DNA of 64,000 nucleotides. Origin: a virus. How positions within the stretch are numbered: the stretch's first letter is position 1; each line of letters starts with the position of its first letter. Under the pieces are notes generated by a model. The model made no database searches. It was not told the DNA's origin and was given only the letters and a program-made list of their open reading frames with translations. This document shows positions 12,226-58,588 of the stretch, piece after piece. The translations under genes and the position numbers were made by a program. The stretch spans positions 1 to 64,000 of IMG/VR virus record IMGVR_UViG_3300035670_000037, one strand, 5' to 3'.

Positions 12226-12714
12226 ATGAAAAAATTATTCGCACAATCAGATATAGATGGTTTTGGTAAAGTAGAAGTTTTAGCATATTATACCAATGGA
12301 CTTAATGAAGAAATGGTATTGATTGGATTATTGACACCTGATTTTCAAGGGCAACCAATTGATGGATTTTTTAGTGATGATTTATTAAGTGAGTTAGAAA
12401 TTGTTAGTACTGTTGAGAGGATATTAGAATATTCAAAAGAATGGCAACTATATCTTGTATTAAAAGAAGATTTAACAAATTTTCATTACGAAGTAGAATA
12501 TAATAATTTAAAATGTATTTGTTGTGATGTAGAATTTGAAAAAGATGATATTCCTCAAAATTATGGTACTGTAGTAGGAGGATATGGAAGTGACTATGAT
12601 TTTATAGAACATGAAATAGCCATATGTGACAAATGTATTAGAGAAAAATTAGAGAAAAAAGCTATAAATCCTTTAAGAAATATTTTAACAAAAGTAAAAT
12701 ATCAAAGACAATGA
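12226..12714 (+). CDS. Paralogue family A protein with zinc-ribbon-like cysteines, 162 aa
   Basis: Starts MKKLFAQSDIDGFGKVEVLA, closely matching the 112-aa protein at 13410 (MKRIFAQHSHFGKVEVLA). The C-terminal half adds CICC and CDKC pairs spaced for a zinc ribbon (about 98-140). Its stop overlaps the start of the next gene (ATGA). It begins a tandem set of five genes in which families A and B alternate. Confidence 0.75.
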   Translation: MKKLFAQSDIDGFGKVEVLAYYTNGLNEEMVLIGLLTPDFQGQPIDGFFSDDLLSELEIVSTVERILEYSKEWQLYLVLKEDLTNFHYEVEYNNLKCICCDVEFEKDDIPQNYGTVVGGYGSDYDFIEHEIAICDKCIREKLEKKAINPLRNILTKVKYQRQ

Positions 12715-13058
12715 AAGATTTAGATTTAAATAATTTACAGAAATGTAGATATAAAGAATATGATAGTAGTATAGTTGAGGGTTATGTATTAGCTAAAAGA
12801 GATTCAAAAAATCATTATTTAGTATATACCATAAATGGTAATAGGGGTCATAGCGGTGCTGGTGATTATGAAGGTATTCAACAAGATGGGTATAACTTTT
12901 ATATTACAGAAAAAGAGTTTAAATTATTAAGAAATGACAGCAAAATGTGGTATGTTTCAGAGGATTATTTTATAAATATAATTGAAGTAGAAAACAATAC
13001 TACTAATATCATCACAACAGTTGATGAAAACGGTAAGATACTTATAACAAAAGACTAA
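12711..13058 (+). CDS. Paralogue family B protein 1, 115 aa
   Basis: First of three tandem paralogues sharing a GHSG/GHIG motif (here GNRGHSGAGDYE), a middle block with EFKLLRNDSKMWYVSEDYF, and a C-terminal TVDENGKILITK. No function recognised. Coupled to the upstream gene by a four-base overlap. Confidence 0.75.
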   Translation: MKDLDLNNLQKCRYKEYDSSIVEGYVLAKRDSKNHYLVYTINGNRGHSGAGDYEGIQQDGYNFYITEKEFKLLRNDSKMWYVSEDYFINIIEVENNTTNIITTVDENGKILITKD

Positions 13059-13062
13059 CATT

Positions 13063-13404
13063 ATGAACAAAGATATAATTGGAAAATATTGTGAATTTTA
13101 TCTAGACGACGGTTCTGACGAAAGAGAAATAGGAAAAATTATAGGTTTCAATCCTAATAATAATGATGAGTTATTAGTATATGTTACTTCTAGTGATATA
13201 GGGCATAGTGGTGATTATTATGAATGGTTGTTAAGAGAAGGATGGGAAATTGATATACTTGAAGAACTATTTGAATTATTAAGAAAAGATAATAGATTTT
13301 GGTATGTTATTAGTGATTTATTTATTGGATTTGTAGACAATGAAATTTTATCAATAGAAACAACCGTAGACGAATCAGGTAAAATAATTATAACTAAAAC
13401 TTAA
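13063..13404 (+). CDS. Paralogue family B protein 2, 113 aa
   Basis: Same plan as its neighbours at 12711 and 13751: IGHSGDYYEWL, then LFELLRKDNRFWYVISDLF, then TTVDESGKIIITK. Five bases after the preceding gene. Diverged enough from the other copies to suggest an old duplication. Confidence 0.75.
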   Translation: MNKDIIGKYCEFYLDDGSDEREIGKIIGFNPNNNDELLVYVTSSDIGHSGDYYEWLLREGWEIDILEELFELLRKDNRFWYVISDLFIGFVDNEILSIETTVDESGKIIITKT

Positions 13405-13409
13405 ATATT

Positions 13410-13748
13410 ATGAAAAGAATATTTGCACAGCATTCACACTTTGGTAAAGTAGAAGTTTTAGCTTATGATACTATCTATGATTCAGATACATGGGTATTAG
13501 TTGGTTTAGATATGCCTAGAGGACACAGTGATTATGGTATATTAAACGAACTACAAATTATTAGTGACGTAGAAACAATATATAATTATGCTAGTAAGTC
13601 TAAACTTTATTGGGTAGAACCAGATGATTTAATTTATCCCGATTCCAAAATAATAGATGTTGTTTCTAAAGAAAATGAAGAACCTAAACAATCGACTACA
13701 AAACTATTAAGACAAAAAAGTTTTGTAAAAATAGACCAAACAGTTTAA
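13410..13748 (+). CDS. Paralogue family A protein 2, 112 aa
   Basis: Shares the N-terminal FGKVEVLAYDT and LNELQIISDVETIYNYASKSKLY blocks with the 162-aa protein at 12226 (LSELEIVSTVERILEYSKEWQLY) but lacks the cysteine-rich tail. Function unknown. Confidence 0.75.
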   Translation: MKRIFAQHSHFGKVEVLAYDTIYDSDTWVLVGLDMPRGHSDYGILNELQIISDVETIYNYASKSKLYWVEPDDLIYPDSKIIDVVSKENEEPKQSTTKLLRQKSFVKIDQTV

Positions 13749-13750
13749 AT

Positions 13751-14104
13751 ATGTATACTATAGATATTTTAAATAAAACTTGTAGATTTGTAAACGAGAA
13801 TACTGGTTCTGAAGCTATAGGAACAATAGTAGCTTTTAGAAACAAACCCTGTAAAGAATTATTAATAAATTTTTTAGAAGGGGATGAAGGTCATATTGGC
13901 CCAGAATATGATTTTTTGAAAAAAAATTCAAACGATTGGAATATTTTGATGACAAATGATGAGTACCAAAAGTTAAGAGATTTTAATAATCTGTGGTATG
14001 TAAATGAAGACCTAGTAATTAGTATTGAAGAAAGTAATGACAATAAACAAACCATACAAACATCAGTCGACGAATCGGGTAAAATAATTATAACTAAACT
14101 TTAA
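13751..14104 (+). CDS. Paralogue family B protein 3, 117 aa
   Basis: Third family B copy: EGDEGHIGPEYDFLK, YQKLRDFNNLWYVNEDLV and TSVDESGKIIITK. Two bases after the previous gene, completing an A-B-B-A-B run that looks like repeated segmental duplication. Confidence 0.75.
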   Translation: MYTIDILNKTCRFVNENTGSEAIGTIVAFRNKPCKELLINFLEGDEGHIGPEYDFLKKNSNDWNILMTNDEYQKLRDFNNLWYVNEDLVISIEESNDNKQTIQTSVDESGKIIITKL

Positions 14105-21370: not shown

Positions 21371-21441
21371 GGTGCCATAGCTCAGTAGGTAGAGCTGTGA
21401 CGACGGTCATGAAAGCATAGGTTCGAACCCTATTGGCACCA
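21371..21441 (+). tRNA. tRNA-like gene with unusual anticodon arm
   Basis: Acceptor GGTGCCA/TGGCACC, D arm GCTCAGTAGGTAGAGC and T arm ATAGG/CCTAT with TTCGAAC are perfect. The anticodon arm is not: TGTGA/TCATG closes a 6-base loop CGACGG (or GTGAC/GTCAT a 4-base loop GACG), and no T33 is present. Anticodon could be GAC (Val) or ACG (Arg) but neither fits well. Directly upstream of the tmRNA. Confidence 0.6.
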
Positions 21442-21442
21442 C

Positions 21443-21691
21443 AGATTGACTTGTTGACTTAGTAAGCAACTTTGCAGGACGAGGGTTCGAATCCCTCCAT
21501 CTCCACTACGTTATCACATGAGTGATTGTCAGTTAAATTCCCTAGAAGTTCATCAGAGCATGGTCTGATAAAAATGGGGATGACTGGTTTCGACTGTAAA
21601 CAGAGGTACTAACGAGAGTTAATTCATAAGTAAACGGAAACGTTGTAAAAATGAACTTCGCTACTGCTAGAGCAGTGGCATAGTTCCGTTC
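21443..21691 (+). ncRNA. ssrA: Circularly permuted (two-piece) tmRNA
   Basis: The tRNA-like 3' half comes first: T arm GAGGG/CCCTC with TTCGAAT, then CATCTCC and discriminator A at 21498-21505. After a 70-base intervening loop (21506-21575) comes the 5' half GGGGATGACTGGTTTCGACTG (21576 on). GGGGATG pairs with CATCTCC, and CTGTAAA (21594-21600) with TTTGCAG (21471-21477), forming acceptor stem and P2. An open frame before TAG at 21681 ends with codons for NFATARAVA, a plausible degradation tag. This order is that of permuted ssrA genes known from alphaproteobacteria and cyanobacteria. tmRNA rescues stalled ribosomes. Confidence 0.85.
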
Positions 21692-21740: not shown

Positions 21741-22523
21741 ATGAGTACTAAAGTAAGAACTAGAGTAGCACCCTCGCCGACAGGCTTTTTTCACATCGGT
21801 ACATTGAGAACTGCTTTATTAAATTATTTATTTGCAAAAGCAAATGACGGTGAATTTATCTTAAGAATAGATGATACAGACCAAGAAAGAGGAGACCAAT
21901 CTTTAATAGATTATATCCACACTCAAATGAGTGATTTTAAGTTACAACATGATTTAACGTTTCAACAATCTGACAGATTAGACAGATACAATGAAATTGC
22001 TAGATTGATAGGTACCTTAGAAAGTGATGGTAGTATTTCTATACAAATGGATGGATACACTATGGGATTAATCAGAAGTAATGGTTTTCCTTTATATAAT
22101 TTTGCAACAGTAGTAGATGATTTTGACTACGATATTACACATATTATAAGAGGAGTTGACCATATTTCAAACGCACAAAAACAAAAAATACTATGGTATA
22201 AAATTGCTGACGCTTTAAAAAGCACTAAACAGTTTCCTGAGTTAATACATGCAGGATTATTATTAGACGGTAAGACAGGTAAAAAAATCTCTAAAAGAGA
22301 TGGTTCTGGACTAGTATCAGATTATTCTGACTATAAAAAAGAAGCTATATTAAATTGGATTCTAAAGTTAGGATGGTCACACAAAGATTCAAAATTTGAC
22401 AAACATTATCCAACATTAACAATCGACCAAATGGTCGAAGTATTTAACGGTGGAAAAATCAACCAATCTAATGTAAAAGTATTTATAGATAAGTTAGATT
22501 GGTTTAACAAGAAATTTAAATAA
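21741..22523 (+). CDS. gltX: Miniature glutamyl-tRNA synthetase-like protein
   Basis: Class I synthetase catalytic domain of 260 aa. The start RVAPSPTGFFHIGTLRTA carries the HIGH-type motif (HIGT), then FILRIDDTDQERG, YNFATVVDDFDYDITHIIRG, and the KMSKS-type motif GKKISKRDG near 207; ILNWILKLGWSHKD matches the end of the GluRS core. Compared with about 470-500 aa in bacterial GluRS, the connective insertion is cut to about 30 residues and the whole anticodon-binding half is missing. GluQ-RS (YadB) is also truncated, but it modifies queuosine and has a degenerate KMSKS. Intact motifs suggest activity on tRNA or a tRNA-like RNA. Lies 24 bases after the tmRNA terminator. Confidence 0.85.
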   Translation: MSTKVRTRVAPSPTGFFHIGTLRTALLNYLFAKANDGEFILRIDDTDQERGDQSLIDYIHTQMSDFKLQHDLTFQQSDRLDRYNEIARLIGTLESDGSISIQMDGYTMGLIRSNGFPLYNFATVVDDFDYDITHIIRGVDHISNAQKQKILWYKIADALKSTKQFPELIHAGLLLDGKTGKKISKRDGSGLVSDYSDYKKEAILNWILKLGWSHKDSKFDKHYPTLTIDQMVEVFNGGKINQSNVKVFIDKLDWFNKKFK

Positions 22524-46348: not shown

Positions 46349-46765
46349 ATGATACAAGAATTAGTAAAGCAATGGGAAGAAAATAAACATGAACTTGAAA
46401 ATTATTTCAGAACAACTAGACAAGAAGAGTATGCGTCAAGTTATAAACAAATATTGAAAAAAATATTTGAATTATGTTTATTGAAAGCAGATAATTACAC
46501 AAATTTTGATTTAGATAAAATGACTGTAATTGACGACGGTGATTATCAAGGTACACAAATTTTTATTATACCTAAAAACACCTATCAACCAAGTGTAGGA
46601 GATTATGTAATGACAAATACTTATTATGGTAGTTGTTCAGGTTGTGACACACTTCAGGCAATCTGTGAGTATGAAAATGGTCTACCAACAGATGATCAAG
46701 TAAAAGGTTATATGACTCTTGCTTTACATTTAGTTCAAAAACTAAAATGGTTAGATAAAAATTAA
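46349..46765 (+). CDS. Phage protein with YYGSCSGCD motif, 139 aa
   Basis: Helical N-terminal half and TYQPSVGDYVMTNTYYGSCS followed by GCDTLQAI, a motif recurring in phages of diverse hosts; two Cys three apart may bind metal. A frame from 46313 overlaps the previous gene; ATG at 46349 is preferred. Last resident gene before the cassette array; its 3' end contains GTTAGAT, which could be the first insertion point. Confidence 0.75.
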   Translation: MIQELVKQWEENKHELENYFRTTRQEEYASSYKQILKKIFELCLLKADNYTNFDLDKMTVIDDGDYQGTQIFIIPKNTYQPSVGDYVMTNTYYGSCSGCDTLQAICEYENGLPTDDQVKGYMTLALHLVQKLKWLDKN

Positions 46766-46804
46766 TTATTAAATTTAATTTTCAAAAATGGGGTCGCATC
46801 CAAA

Positions 46805-47258
46805 ATGAAACAAATAAAAGCAATACCAAAATTAGTTTTCGATAAACACTTTACTAATAAGGAGTTTGAATATTATGATTACTCTTGTTTTATTTCAATA
46901 CTTGATATTGATAATAATGAGCAAAAGTTTGATAAATCAATAGACAATTTTCTACAAGTAAAAATATGGGATATTGAAGAAGATCTGTTTGAAAATGGTG
47001 AGTTAAAATATGAAAAACCAAATGATAAAGAACTAAAAAAAAATAGTTGATTTTATAAATAAACATAAGGATAAATCAGTATTTATAGTTCATTGTTCTG
47101 CTGGGATTTCTCGAAGCGGTGCGGTTGCAATTTTTTTGTATGATAAATTTTTGTCAGAAATAGACAAAGAACAATTCAGAAGAGAAAATAAATACATAAG
47201 ACCAAACCTTTATATTTTAAACAGATTGAAGTATTTAGATATTGTCGTTTTAGAATGA
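46805..47258 (+). pseudogene. Cassette 1: dual-specificity phosphatase, frameshifted in an A9 run
   Basis: The first frame (46805-47050) gives 81 residues and stops just after nine consecutive A (47035-47043). One nucleotide skipped there opens the frame giving IVDFINKHKDKSVFIVHCSA then GISRSGAVAIFLY, which holds the HCX5R phosphatase signature (HCSAGISR), ending at 47258. Intact length would be about 150 aa, normal for a small tyrosine/dual-specificity phosphatase. Either an inactivating indel, polymerase slippage giving some functional product, or a sequencing error. It is followed directly by an attC-like site. Confidence 0.7.
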
Positions 47259-47259
47259 C

Positions 47260-47354
47260 GACTAACGGTTCGGGTATATATTCAGTACCCTTGCACCGAA
47301 CTTAAAAATTTAATATAAACTTTAATAGGGTATTGTATATATACTTTGTTAGCA
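47260..47354 (+). repeat. attC-like recombination site 1
   Basis: Left end CTAAC at 47262-47266, right end GTTAGCA at 47348-47354. Inner imperfect inverted repeat: GTATATAT..TACCC against GGGTAT..ATATATAC, about 85 bases between the AAC and GTT triplets. Layout R''-L''-L'-R' of integron attC sites. Confidence 0.75.
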
Positions 47355-47367
47355 AACGTTAATTATT

Positions 47368-47616
47368 ATGGATGAAGTTAAAATGTTTTTATTTGCAAGG
47401 TGGATTGCTACTTGCTATGCTGATACACATTTAGATAGTAAAATGAAATGTAAGCACGATGAAGGATTTAAAGAGTCAGAAGCAATCTCAGTTTTAAATA
47501 GAGAAACAGGATATTGGTATAAGGAACAATTAAAACATTTTAACGATGTCGTGTATCCGAACTACATTGAAAACGGAACAGTTGAAAATACGAAACAGTT
47601 CTTTAATGTTTGCTAA
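47368..47616 (+). CDS. Cassette 2 protein, 82 aa
   Basis: Hypothetical, MKMF-like start MDEVKMFLFARWIATCYADT, with several Trp and Cys. Fourteen bases from the left cassette junction; its TAA lies within the R'' box of the next attC site, a typical compact cassette. Not recognised. Confidence 0.65.
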   Translation: MDEVKMFLFARWIATCYADTHLDSKMKCKHDEGFKESEAISVLNRETGYWYKEQLKHFNDVVYPNYIENGTVENTKQFFNVC

Positions 47617-47741
47617 CGATTTGGTGTTTCTGAAGAACGGGCTACGGAAACTGAACTGACTAAATATAACTGAAATAACAACTAAAATCGCAATAACAAT
47701 AGATGTTTTTAAACCCGTTTTTTAGAAACATATTGTTAGCA
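47611..47741 (+). repeat. attC-like recombination site 2
   Basis: Left TGCTAAC (47611-47617), right GTTAGCA (47735-47741). Inner arms GTTTCTGAAGAACGGG and CCCGTTTTTTAGAAAC pair with a few mismatches. The left box, extended to TTTGCTAAC, is the exact complement of the cassette's own start GTTAGCAAA at 47348, as expected if the cassette had been a circle. Confidence 0.82.
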
Positions 47742-47758
47742 GCAGTAACACTAATTAT

Positions 47759-48046
47759 ATGGCACTTGATTTAGAAGAAATGAAAAAAAATATAGACGAG
47801 TTTTTAGCAAATATAACACAAGAGGAAATTAACAAATATTTTCCTCCTGATACTCGTCCAAAAGGTTGGTTAAGTATTGAAGAATATTTACCAATGATGT
47901 GTGCAATTGACATTGTACAGGGATATACACTTTATAAAGTGAAAGACAAGAATGGTAACGAATTTGAAAGTGCTGTATCAGACCATAATAATTGGTATTA
48001 CTACGCAAAAGAAGAAGGTATTACTCACTGGTGGAATGGAGAGTAG
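47759..48046 (+). CDS. Cassette 3 protein, 95 aa
   Basis: Acidic hypothetical protein; segments EEINKYFPPDTRPKGWLSIE and TLYKVKDKNGNEFESAVSDH. No family recognised. Single short gene close to the cassette start (47736), normal for integron cassettes. Confidence 0.68.
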   Translation: MALDLEEMKKNIDEFLANITQEEINKYFPPDTRPKGWLSIEEYLPMMCAIDIVQGYTLYKVKDKNGNEFESAVSDHNNWYYYAKEEGITHWWNGE

Positions 48047-48053
48047 TTATTGC

Positions 48054-48185
48054 TGCTAACGTTTTGCGTGTATAAGAAGTGGCGTAGAACGTGCCGAAGC
48101 ATTACAAAAATTAAATAATTATAAATTAATAAATAACCAATCCAAAACTGCCGATAGTAGCCATTTTTTATACACGCTGTTATCT
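48054..48185 (+). repeat. attC-like recombination site 3
   Basis: Left TGCTAAC (48054-48060), right GTTATCT (48179-48185). Inner arms GCGTGTATAAGAAGTGGC and GCCATTTTTTATACACGC. Extended left box TGCTGCTAAC is the complement of this cassette's start GTTAGCAGCA (47735). Confidence 0.84.
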
Positions 48186-48215
48186 TTCAGTTGCGGGTTT
48201 TAAAAACAGAATATT

Positions 48216-48449
48216 ATGAACATTCAAGACGAATTACAGAAAATCCACCATCAGTATGGAACAAGCGAAAAAGCTAATTATGAAATACAAAAACTATTTG
48301 ACAAACAAATTAGAGAAAGTGATTTTTTAGCGTGTCATTTTACTAAACATATTTTAAATATGCCAAATAATAAATTAGAGAGTAAAACAGTAAAAGAACA
48401 TTACTCAGAGTTTAAAAAACGTTATTTAGAAGAAAATAGTAGCAATTGA
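48216..48449 (+). CDS. Cassette 4 protein, 77 aa
   Basis: Helical hypothetical protein starting MNIQDELQKIHHQYGTSEKA. Stop codon abuts the R'' box of attC site 4. Not recognised. Confidence 0.67.
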   Translation: MNIQDELQKIHHQYGTSEKANYEIQKLFDKQIRESDFLACHFTKHILNMPNNKLESKTVKEHYSEFKKRYLEENSSN

Positions 48450-48579
48450 AGATAACGTTCGAGCATTGGCGAAGTGCAGACTAAGGATGCCGAACCTGAA
48501 AGGTTCAAGTCCGTGGCAAACGAAGGCAAATGCGACTATTAATAACTCAACTCTGCATTTTGCCAATGCTGTGTTATAC
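48450..48579 (+). repeat. attC-like recombination site 4
   Basis: Left AGATAAC (48450-48456), right GTTATAC (48573-48579). Inner arms GCATTGGCGAAGTGCAGA (48463-48480) and TCTGCATTTTGCCAATGC (48552-48569) pair with two mismatches, the best preserved of the set. The left box GAAGATAAC complements the start of cassette 4 (GTTATCTTTC). Confidence 0.86.
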
Positions 48580-48649
48580 GAAGAAGTTTTTTAGCAAAGG
48601 CAATACGGCTGGAACAGACGTAAATATTAACAAAGAAATTATATAAATA

Positions 48650-48907
48650 ATGAAAACAATTACAGGATTTATTTTCGGATTAGTAATGGCAATTTTAATT
48701 TCAGCCACTACCATCAATACCAGTTTAATTACAACAAAACCAAATACTCCAAAATCTGTTTTAGTGAAAGGATTTGGATATAATGAAGAAGAAGAAATTC
48801 AGCAATACGTTTCAGCTTGTACCAAAGACGGTTATGTTGTAAAATCGCTTAATGGTGGTGGTGGAAGTGGAGGAAGTTGGTGGTTTTTAGTGATGGAAAA
48901 ATATTAA
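48650..48907 (+). CDS. Cassette 5 protein, small exported, 85 aa
   Basis: Signal-like start MKTITGFIFGLVMAILISAT, then GGGGSGGSWWFLVMEKY at the end. Its architecture and ends resemble the resident phage protein at 35553. A cassette-borne relative of a phage gene suggests exchange between array and phage genome. Confidence 0.7.
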   Translation: MKTITGFIFGLVMAILISATTINTSLITTKPNTPKSVLVKGFGYNEEEEIQQYVSACTKDGYVVKSLNGGGGSGGSWWFLVMEKY

Positions 48908-48949
48908 AACACAACATTATAAAAAAAAGCGATGGCAAAAAACTTTTTT

Positions 48950-48956
48950 GTATAAC
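48950..48956 (+). repeat. Half attC site (R''-like GTATAAC), end of array
   Basis: GTATAAC complements the start of cassette 5 (GTTATAC at 48573), so it should be that cassette's left box. No matching right half is seen downstream, so the array seems truncated here. A short A/T hairpin lies between 48912 and 48950. Confidence 0.5.
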
Positions 48957-48993
48957 ACAAAAATAGACGCAATAAAAGTATTACAAAAACACG

Positions 48994-57952: not shown

Positions 57953-58588
57953 TTATTTTATATTTAAAAGTCTGTCCACCCCTATGGCAAATCCTACTCC
58001 ACCTTCATATTCTCCACCTCCACAAACTTGTTTTGAACTTCCAAGAGCTTCGCAAGTTATTTCAAACCCTTTACCTTCTTTATAATAATCCAAACCTCTT
58101 TTTACATTAAAATGTAAATCAAATTTTTCTTTTGAAACTGATGTTAGTAATTTATAAGCTAACTCTGGTAAAATAAATCCACTTCCAATATAATCTGTTG
58201 TTGGATTTATGATTTCTACACCAATTTGTGTAAATTGTCTGTATCTACCCGCTTGAGGTTTCTCACCTCTAAAACATTCTTGAACATAAAATAACTTTAC
58301 GTCTTTTTCCATCTTAAAGGTTGTATTACTTAACTTTTGGATTACCGCCGTATATTCTGGTGCCAAACAAAGATTTCTATCACCTCTGTCTTTAAAATTA
58401 TACATGAGGTTATTATTTTCCTCACCTACTTTTCCCTCGAAAGTTTTTTGAGACTGTATAATAGGAATTGATATTTCTTTAAATCCCTCTGATTTAAGAA
58501 TATCAATCATCATATTGATATTATCTCTTTTTTTGTTTCCTAAAACAATTCTTGTTCCTTTATAACATGTTTCTTTAATTTCTTCCAT
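57953..58588 (-). CDS. hisS: Miniature histidyl-tRNA synthetase-like protein
   Basis: Class II catalytic core of 211 aa (bacterial HisRS about 420). GFKEISIPIIQSQKTFEGKV (motif 1 region), LCLAPEYTA (PEGTA block), FRGEKPQAGRYRQFTQIGVE (motif 2), NVKRGLDYYKEGKGFEIT (HisA), CGGGEYEGG and VGFAIGVDRLL (motif 3). The helical insertion between motif 2 and HisA is almost absent and the anticodon-binding domain is missing. HisZ regulators are also shortened but keep about 300 aa. With tRNA-His(GTG) at 373 a charging role is possible; conserved catalytic blocks argue for activity. Confidence 0.87.
   Translation of the reverse strand: MEEIKETCYKGTRIVLGNKKRDNINMMIDILKSEGFKEISIPIIQSQKTFEGKVGEENNNLMYNFKDRGDRNLCLAPEYTAVIQKLSNTTFKMEKDVKLFYVQECFRGEKPQAGRYRQFTQIGVEIINPTTDYIGSGFILPELAYKLLTSVSKEKFDLHFNVKRGLDYYKEGKGFEITCEALGSSKQVCGGGEYEGGVGFAIGVDRLLNIK

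Follow-up and report, generated by a model that had tools for sequence, protein, structure and literature searches.

IMG/VR record IMGVR_UViG_3300035670_000037 is a viral sequence of 132,008 bases. Its first 64,000 bases, which we refer to as the window, carry an array of four attC-like hairpin sites, each bounded by AAC and GTT, that alternate with four short open reading frames (ORFs), c2 to c5 (Table 1). To our knowledge, integrons are known almost wholly as bacterial platforms that rely on the I2 helix of the integrase IntI. We present evidence that the four units of the window are, very probably, mobile cassettes of a phage-borne integron-like system that operates by the mechanism proposed below. 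An initial annotation of the window had read the locus as an integron-type phage array without a recombinase, and that core stands: the units are mobile, their ends follow the logic of a circular site, and relatives carry both a recombinase and an attI-like site.

The covariance search that the initial annotation had put forward as a check recovers its four inverted repeats. A model, R1, trained on 39 sites from elsewhere and on none of the window's own, matched all four (E-values of 2.4e-11 to 2.2e-7) when run with filters off over both strands of the 64 kb; the next match had an E-value of 0.63, and under default filters the model missed the window sites. A scan for site geometry returned the four + strand sites and nothing else in the window; the remaining 68 kb of the record gave none. 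As controls, shuffled sequence gave 6 strict sites per Mb, and a relaxed scan of RtcB-centred viral contigs gave 6 sites in 2.36 million strand-bases. An Rfam scan at the gathering threshold matched no attC family. The unit limits, computed directly, are 47264-47617, 47615-48060, 48058-48456 and 48454-48956. Near-copies of the site 3 hairpin were seen in loci L012, L022, L043, L050 and L074, and the stem of site 4 was found identically in L052.

Within a unit, the two ends are tied together by their boxes. In a set of 104 consecutive units, the bases that follow GTT where a unit starts complement those that precede AAC where it ends: seven positions pair at frequencies of 0.62-0.96, position 8 is a fixed mismatch (0.02, against about 0.25 by chance) and four further positions pair at 0.62-0.76. 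Complementary runs of at least five were found in 60% of own-unit boxes compared with 4-5% of same-site or random pairs, and this complementarity is absent between the two boxes of one array site. The relation played no part in finding the sites. It had been claimed for cassettes 2, 3 and 4 of the window, where it holds, and it extends to c5: it is clear in the units of c2, c3 and c5 (boxes GTTATACGAAGAAGTTTTTT / AAAAAACTTTTTTGTATAAC for c5) and present with a one-base offset in that of c4. The last unit, described earlier as a half site only, is complete, with its hairpin at 48454-48575 and an end box at 48942-48956. Conversely, the stretch 46749-47260, counted earlier as the first cassette, has neither a complementary start box nor a preceding hairpin and is therefore probably flank or a relic. 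The phosphatase-like gene within it is split by a frameshift in a nine-A run near 47040, which may reflect a sequencing error, decay or programmed frameshifting, and has no cassette-type start box. After the final end box there is neither the constant half of an attI-like site nor a recombinase gene; the record as a whole has no attI-like site and, extending the earlier remark that no integrase lies in the window, no PF00589 or cassette-type recombinase.

Table 1. Coordinates of the array and its left flank in the window
Feature	Position	Strand	Remark
Dual-specificity-phosphatase-like gene left of the array	46805..47256	+	DSPc E=1.9e-5, below cut-off
attC-like hairpin site 1 (AAC..GTT), short class, 5' part of unit 1	47264..47350	+	R1 E=2.2e-7
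Cargo ORF c2, 82 aa, no Pfam family above cut-off	47368..47616	+	
attC-like hairpin site 2, 5' part of unit 2	47615..47737	+	R1 E=1.4e-10
Cargo ORF c3, 95 aa, weak DUF551 similarity	47759..48046	+	
attC-like hairpin site 3, 5' part of unit 3	48058..48181	+	R1 E=2.4e-11
Cargo ORF c4, 77 aa, no Pfam match	48216..48449	+	
attC-like hairpin site 4, 5' part of unit 4	48454..48575	+	R1 E=8.9e-11
Cargo ORF c5, 85 aa, N-terminal hydrophobic segment, no Pfam match	48650..48907	+	
End box of last unit (ACTTTTTTGTATAAC)	48942..48956	+	Complementary to own start box 48573-48587

When the sites of excised circles were rebuilt in silico, they folded into one long hairpin, which was more stable on the coding (top) strand in 103 of the 104 cases. 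The inner stem shows compensatory changes in 17 of its 18 pairs, and the R''-L''-L'-R' layout of attC is present. The boxes are of the type GTTANNNG, which differs from the GTTRRRY core. Extrahelical bases, which the initial annotation had expected in the fold, are absent: the stems of the family are unbulged, and the inner stem instead carries a conserved G.T wobble. Among the 109 sites of a wobble-agnostic scan, 81% have it at position 14 ahead of GTT. A description of the stem as having two invariant wobbles was abandoned as too strong, the search pattern having fixed both; the wobble-agnostic scan gave 81% and 31%.

A classical cassette is an ORF followed by its attC, and each hairpin had been assigned to the preceding ORF. 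Comparison between loci reverses this. Among 1837 hairpin-similar pairs with full flanks, drawn from 284 distinct sites, similarity continued downstream only in 297, upstream only in 8 and on both sides in 1. At the left border of the unit (TAAC), identity is 1.00 at AAC and has dropped to 0.20 two bases further left, and 11 unit pairs have unrelated upstream DNA despite a unit identity of at least 90%. From the downstream-only sharing and the drop at AAC, it follows that the unit is the hairpin plus the following ORF, a polarity opposite to that of the classical cassette.

Homologues of c2 are found in four other viral contigs (L006-L009, 60-95% identity), and the DNA similarity to L007 takes in both the hairpin before c2 and the c2 ORF (window 47263-47618) in surroundings that differ. 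Those of c3 lie in different neighbourhoods in L004 (86% identity) and L005 (83%), and the DNA similarity breaks off at the unit's own boxes (window 47733-48062). Such comparisons indicate that units have been exchanged between contigs. The cassette ORFs had no match among INPHARED phages. The hairpin alone, used as a DNA pattern, was found in at least 120 stretches of viral contigs and in 111 stretches of 257 Gb of bacterial and archaeal genomes, 41 of which have a strict site. The longest ORFs of bounded units are sense to the site in 94 of 99 cases. In many units, translation starts in the hairpin loop (L241:283-1150, L098, L054), and stem and box therefore encode a recurring leader (MIDRITEQPFCQTRV...), which would supply each cassette with its own start signal.

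PF00589 searches of array-bearing contigs identified short tyrosine recombinases of 265-289 amino acids, mostly adjoining the arrays. A search by recombinase protein only, of which the best 80 of 407 viral loci were read, provided 61 loci with at least 1.5 kb of upstream sequence. Upstream sites on the recombinase strand are present in 48 of these 61, which together hold 130 sites in 311 kb upstream versus 1 in 314 kb downstream, and 0 on the other strand. In 58 of 76 loci, the start codon of the recombinase is preceded, at a distance of about 50 (or 67) nt, by an attI-like site composed of a variable cassette end (..TTGCNNNTAAC) and the constant NNNNATATGTA. The variable half of this site complements the start of the last unit, scoring at least 7.5 out of 10 in most loci; the match together with a stringent hairpin was found in 20 of 46, versus 2 for swapped boxes. 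Complete members are arranged as (hairpin-ORF)n, attI, recombinase.

The viral recombinase, which is short and XerA/C/D-like, lacks the I2-containing segment of IntI and is not itself an IntI. The viral enzymes tested fall below every curated cut-off, including that of TIGR02249 (265 bits). Aligned to VchIntIA (2a3v) with phmmer, they miss about 50 residues between the KDR and HxLRH motifs, whose spacing is 53-64 in the viral enzymes and 101 in IntI; archaeal XerA aligns to the viral enzyme without this gap. An AlphaFold2 (AF2) model of the viral enzyme (predicted local distance difference test, pLDDT, 88.9) has no extra helix at the I2 region, and XerA is its best structural match, followed by 2a3v. 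In a phylogenetic tree, 60 viral enzymes form one clade (100/99), separate from 18 chromosomal homologues of Bacteroidota; the tree holds a single IntI, the placement of which is unsure because it sits on a long branch.

We propose that, in an excised circle of hairpin site and ORF, the unit's own start and end boxes would base-pair on either side of the hairpin, restoring a full site that is most stable on the top strand. The short recombinase would join this folded site to the attI-like site before its own gene, so that new cassettes would enter at the recombinase end and older ones would lie further upstream. As the 132-kb record has no recombinase, the cassettes of the window probably arrived, and may still be mobilised, in trans, through the recombinase of a co-infecting phage or of the host chromosome; failing that, the array would have been left behind. 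Such a platform would let Bacteroidota phages swap small accessory and counter-defence genes. We also think it reasonably likely that these phages possess a dedicated integron class, in which the I2-less clade captures inverted-polarity, folded-site cassettes, and a network for exchanging counter-defence genes. In that case, the I2 helix of IntI would not be required for single-strand cassette recombination.

Several points weigh against the mechanism proposed here. Recombination, circular cassettes and dependence on single-stranded DNA are inferred, and none was observed. According to the literature, I2 occurs in IntI alone and is required both to capture cassettes and to act on folded sites (PMC7790495), so that for enzymes without it a folded single strand is no more than a putative substrate. 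The window's record, which may be incomplete, has neither recombinase nor attI, and the viral evidence comes mostly from metagenome contigs. The second stem wobble was partly imposed by the first search pattern and is found in 31% of unselected sites. Finally, the comparison of related phages that had been suggested as a check, made through the synteny of NAMPT and RtcB, turned up no close relative, whether carrying the array or lacking it, and no close syntenic relative with an empty site.

The array could alternatively be a classical cluster of attC sites lacking integron-integrases (CALIN), i.e. ordinary ORF-attC cassettes from a bacterial integron that are recognised by IntI. The box logic and the hairpin layout are indeed alike, and phage CALINs exist, with five of six tested sites recombining with IntI1 (PMC9892861). 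We nevertheless consider this origin very unlikely, as the hairpin goes with the following ORF, the linked recombinase has no IntI-specific segment, and viral ORFs are sense to site polarity in 203 cases versus 8, while those of bacterial loci are mostly reverse (14 versus 33). Furthermore, none of the 37 bacterial genomes carrying such sites has a TIGR02249 match over the cut-off, and P12002L, the sole phage CALIN of Qi et al. that was examined, has no site of the present type. Two true IntI genes also have no such sites alongside, which is a weak control because their loci hold few classical attC sites. As to the CALIN label of the initial annotation, which is defined by at least two attC sites with no integrase nearby, the window has four sites without a recombinase, but these are of non-classical type; with reversed polarity, other boxes, an unbulged stem and an I2-less recombinase in the family, the array appears not to be a CALIN of the known sort. 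Static hairpins, serving as terminators or 5' regulatory RNA elements and spread by ordinary homologous recombination, would account for the top strand being the one that folds best, as RNA with G.U pairs too, and for the start codon (ATG) that lies within the hairpin in 61 of 238 units. They are highly improbable, given that the complementarity links the start and end of a unit, hundreds of bases apart, and not the two sides of one site, that attI-like sites and recombinase stand at the same array end, and that the unit borders are sharp.

It is also conceivable, and in our view unlikely without being far-fetched, that a host Xer-type or chromosomal Bacteroidota cassette recombinase moves the units and that the phage-borne enzymes are a sideline. 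The window phage has no recombinase of its own, and there are chromosomal relatives that have similar hairpins and an attI-like site of their own; against this, arrays are tied in fixed orientation to the phage recombinase in most recombinase-bearing viral contigs. The least probable explanation of all is that the assembly is faulty or that bacterial DNA was mis-binned. The record (G000) and most of its relatives come from metagenome contigs, but tail and DNA polymerase proteins are encoded in the window, portal, virion and primase proteins are encoded beyond it, the structural proteins match virion PHROGs, and TerL (one Pfam model, PF03237) is found in 12 of 48 related contigs. The window also encodes NAMPT, RtcB, a tRNA nucleotidyltransferase and a helicase. 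Moreover, the isolated, complete Polaribacter phage Leef_1 (L482, 3850-6864) carries three units with perfect or near-perfect own boxes (9-10 out of 10) and attI-like DNA just 5' of its annotated integrase, which is 33% identical to the L300 enzyme. The array host is a virus of Bacteroidota bacteria, and its PHROG matches make it look like a crAss-like phage.

The phage-borne cassette system shares with integrons the single-gene mobile units, the arrays of unrelated cargo, the folded site formed from the unit's own ends and the attI-like insertion site that adjoins a tyrosine recombinase gene. It differs in the hairpin, which precedes the ORF, in ORFs that aim at the recombinase, in a site marked by a conserved G.T wobble and not by bulged bases, and in a recombinase that is below the TIGR02249 cut-off and has no I2-containing segment. 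Phage-borne arrays had been called very rarely described, a statement corrected by the 17 phage CALINs of Qi et al. 2023 (PMC9892861); those likewise have cassette sites in virulent phages and DNA methyltransferase cargo, but their sites are classical attC and they have no dedicated phage recombinase family. In the reverse integron of Treponema denticola (PMC4909258, PMC7691350), integrase and cassettes are also transcribed in one direction; its cassettes lie downstream of intI, whereas those of the phages lie upstream and are aimed at the recombinase. XerA, XerC and XerD provide the nearest solved structures and NCBIfam models, yet the phage members tested fall below their curated cut-offs and are linked to arrays and attI, not to dif.

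Judged against the open-access literature, this large integron-like family in phages is apparently undescribed, and the reversed, I2-less system appears new; the nearest systems (PMC9892861, PMC4909258, PMC7691350) do not match it. If our interpretation is correct, folded-site gene capture extends beyond IntI, the role of I2 becomes directly testable, and phages own a dedicated route for trading anti-defence genes. Tools based on IntI and classical attC have probably overlooked such systems, and the sites could serve to flag new anti-defence genes.

Integrons are scarce on record in Bacteroidota (PMC9024848), and the present find adds an integron-like system to their chromosomes. The chromosomal homologues (L353-L374, L469, L470 and L473) have a related I2-less recombinase, usually with an N-terminal extension. 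Their attI-like site is on the opposite strand, at the 3' end of the recombinase gene, and in several of them similar hairpins lie beyond it. An earlier notion that all bacterial homologues are without attI was rejected once the site had been located at this 3' end. Given the ORF orientations cited above, bacteria appear to have a version with the classical ORF-then-site polarity and phages the reversed one; some of the sense-oriented bacterial cases are probably prophages or phage contigs in metagenome-assembled genomes. L236 and L240 are further Bacteroidota loci listed with the classical-polarity version, and L473 has one cassette in two copies.

Cargo was computed directly for 128 unit ORFs, the majority of which have no Pfam family. 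The remainder include N6/N4 methylases (10), C5 methylases (5), MT-A70 (4) and one each of Dam, Mom and the Thoeris inhibitor Tad3. Judging by these family matches, the cargo is rich in DNA methyltransferases, and its known part reads best as counter-defence. In L392, L398 and L418, the sites that the scan of RtcB-centred control contigs picked up flank or directly precede RtcB, and the tRNA ligase RtcB is therefore itself cassette cargo there. One ORF of the Leef_1 array is annotated as DUF551, the family to which c3 has a weak similarity.

Several features outside the array were also observed in the window. Next to an unusual tRNA, positions 21371-21619 match a permuted transfer-messenger RNA (tmRNA) family (RF04321, 56.1 bits, above gathering), and we annotate them, from this match, as a putative phage-encoded tmRNA. 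There are 11 predicted tRNA genes. Judged by eye, positions 21741-22523 encode a truncated glutamyl-tRNA-synthetase-like protein, positions 57953-58588 a class II aminoacyl-tRNA-synthetase-like protein, and positions 12711-14104 a run of adjacent paralogous small ORFs.

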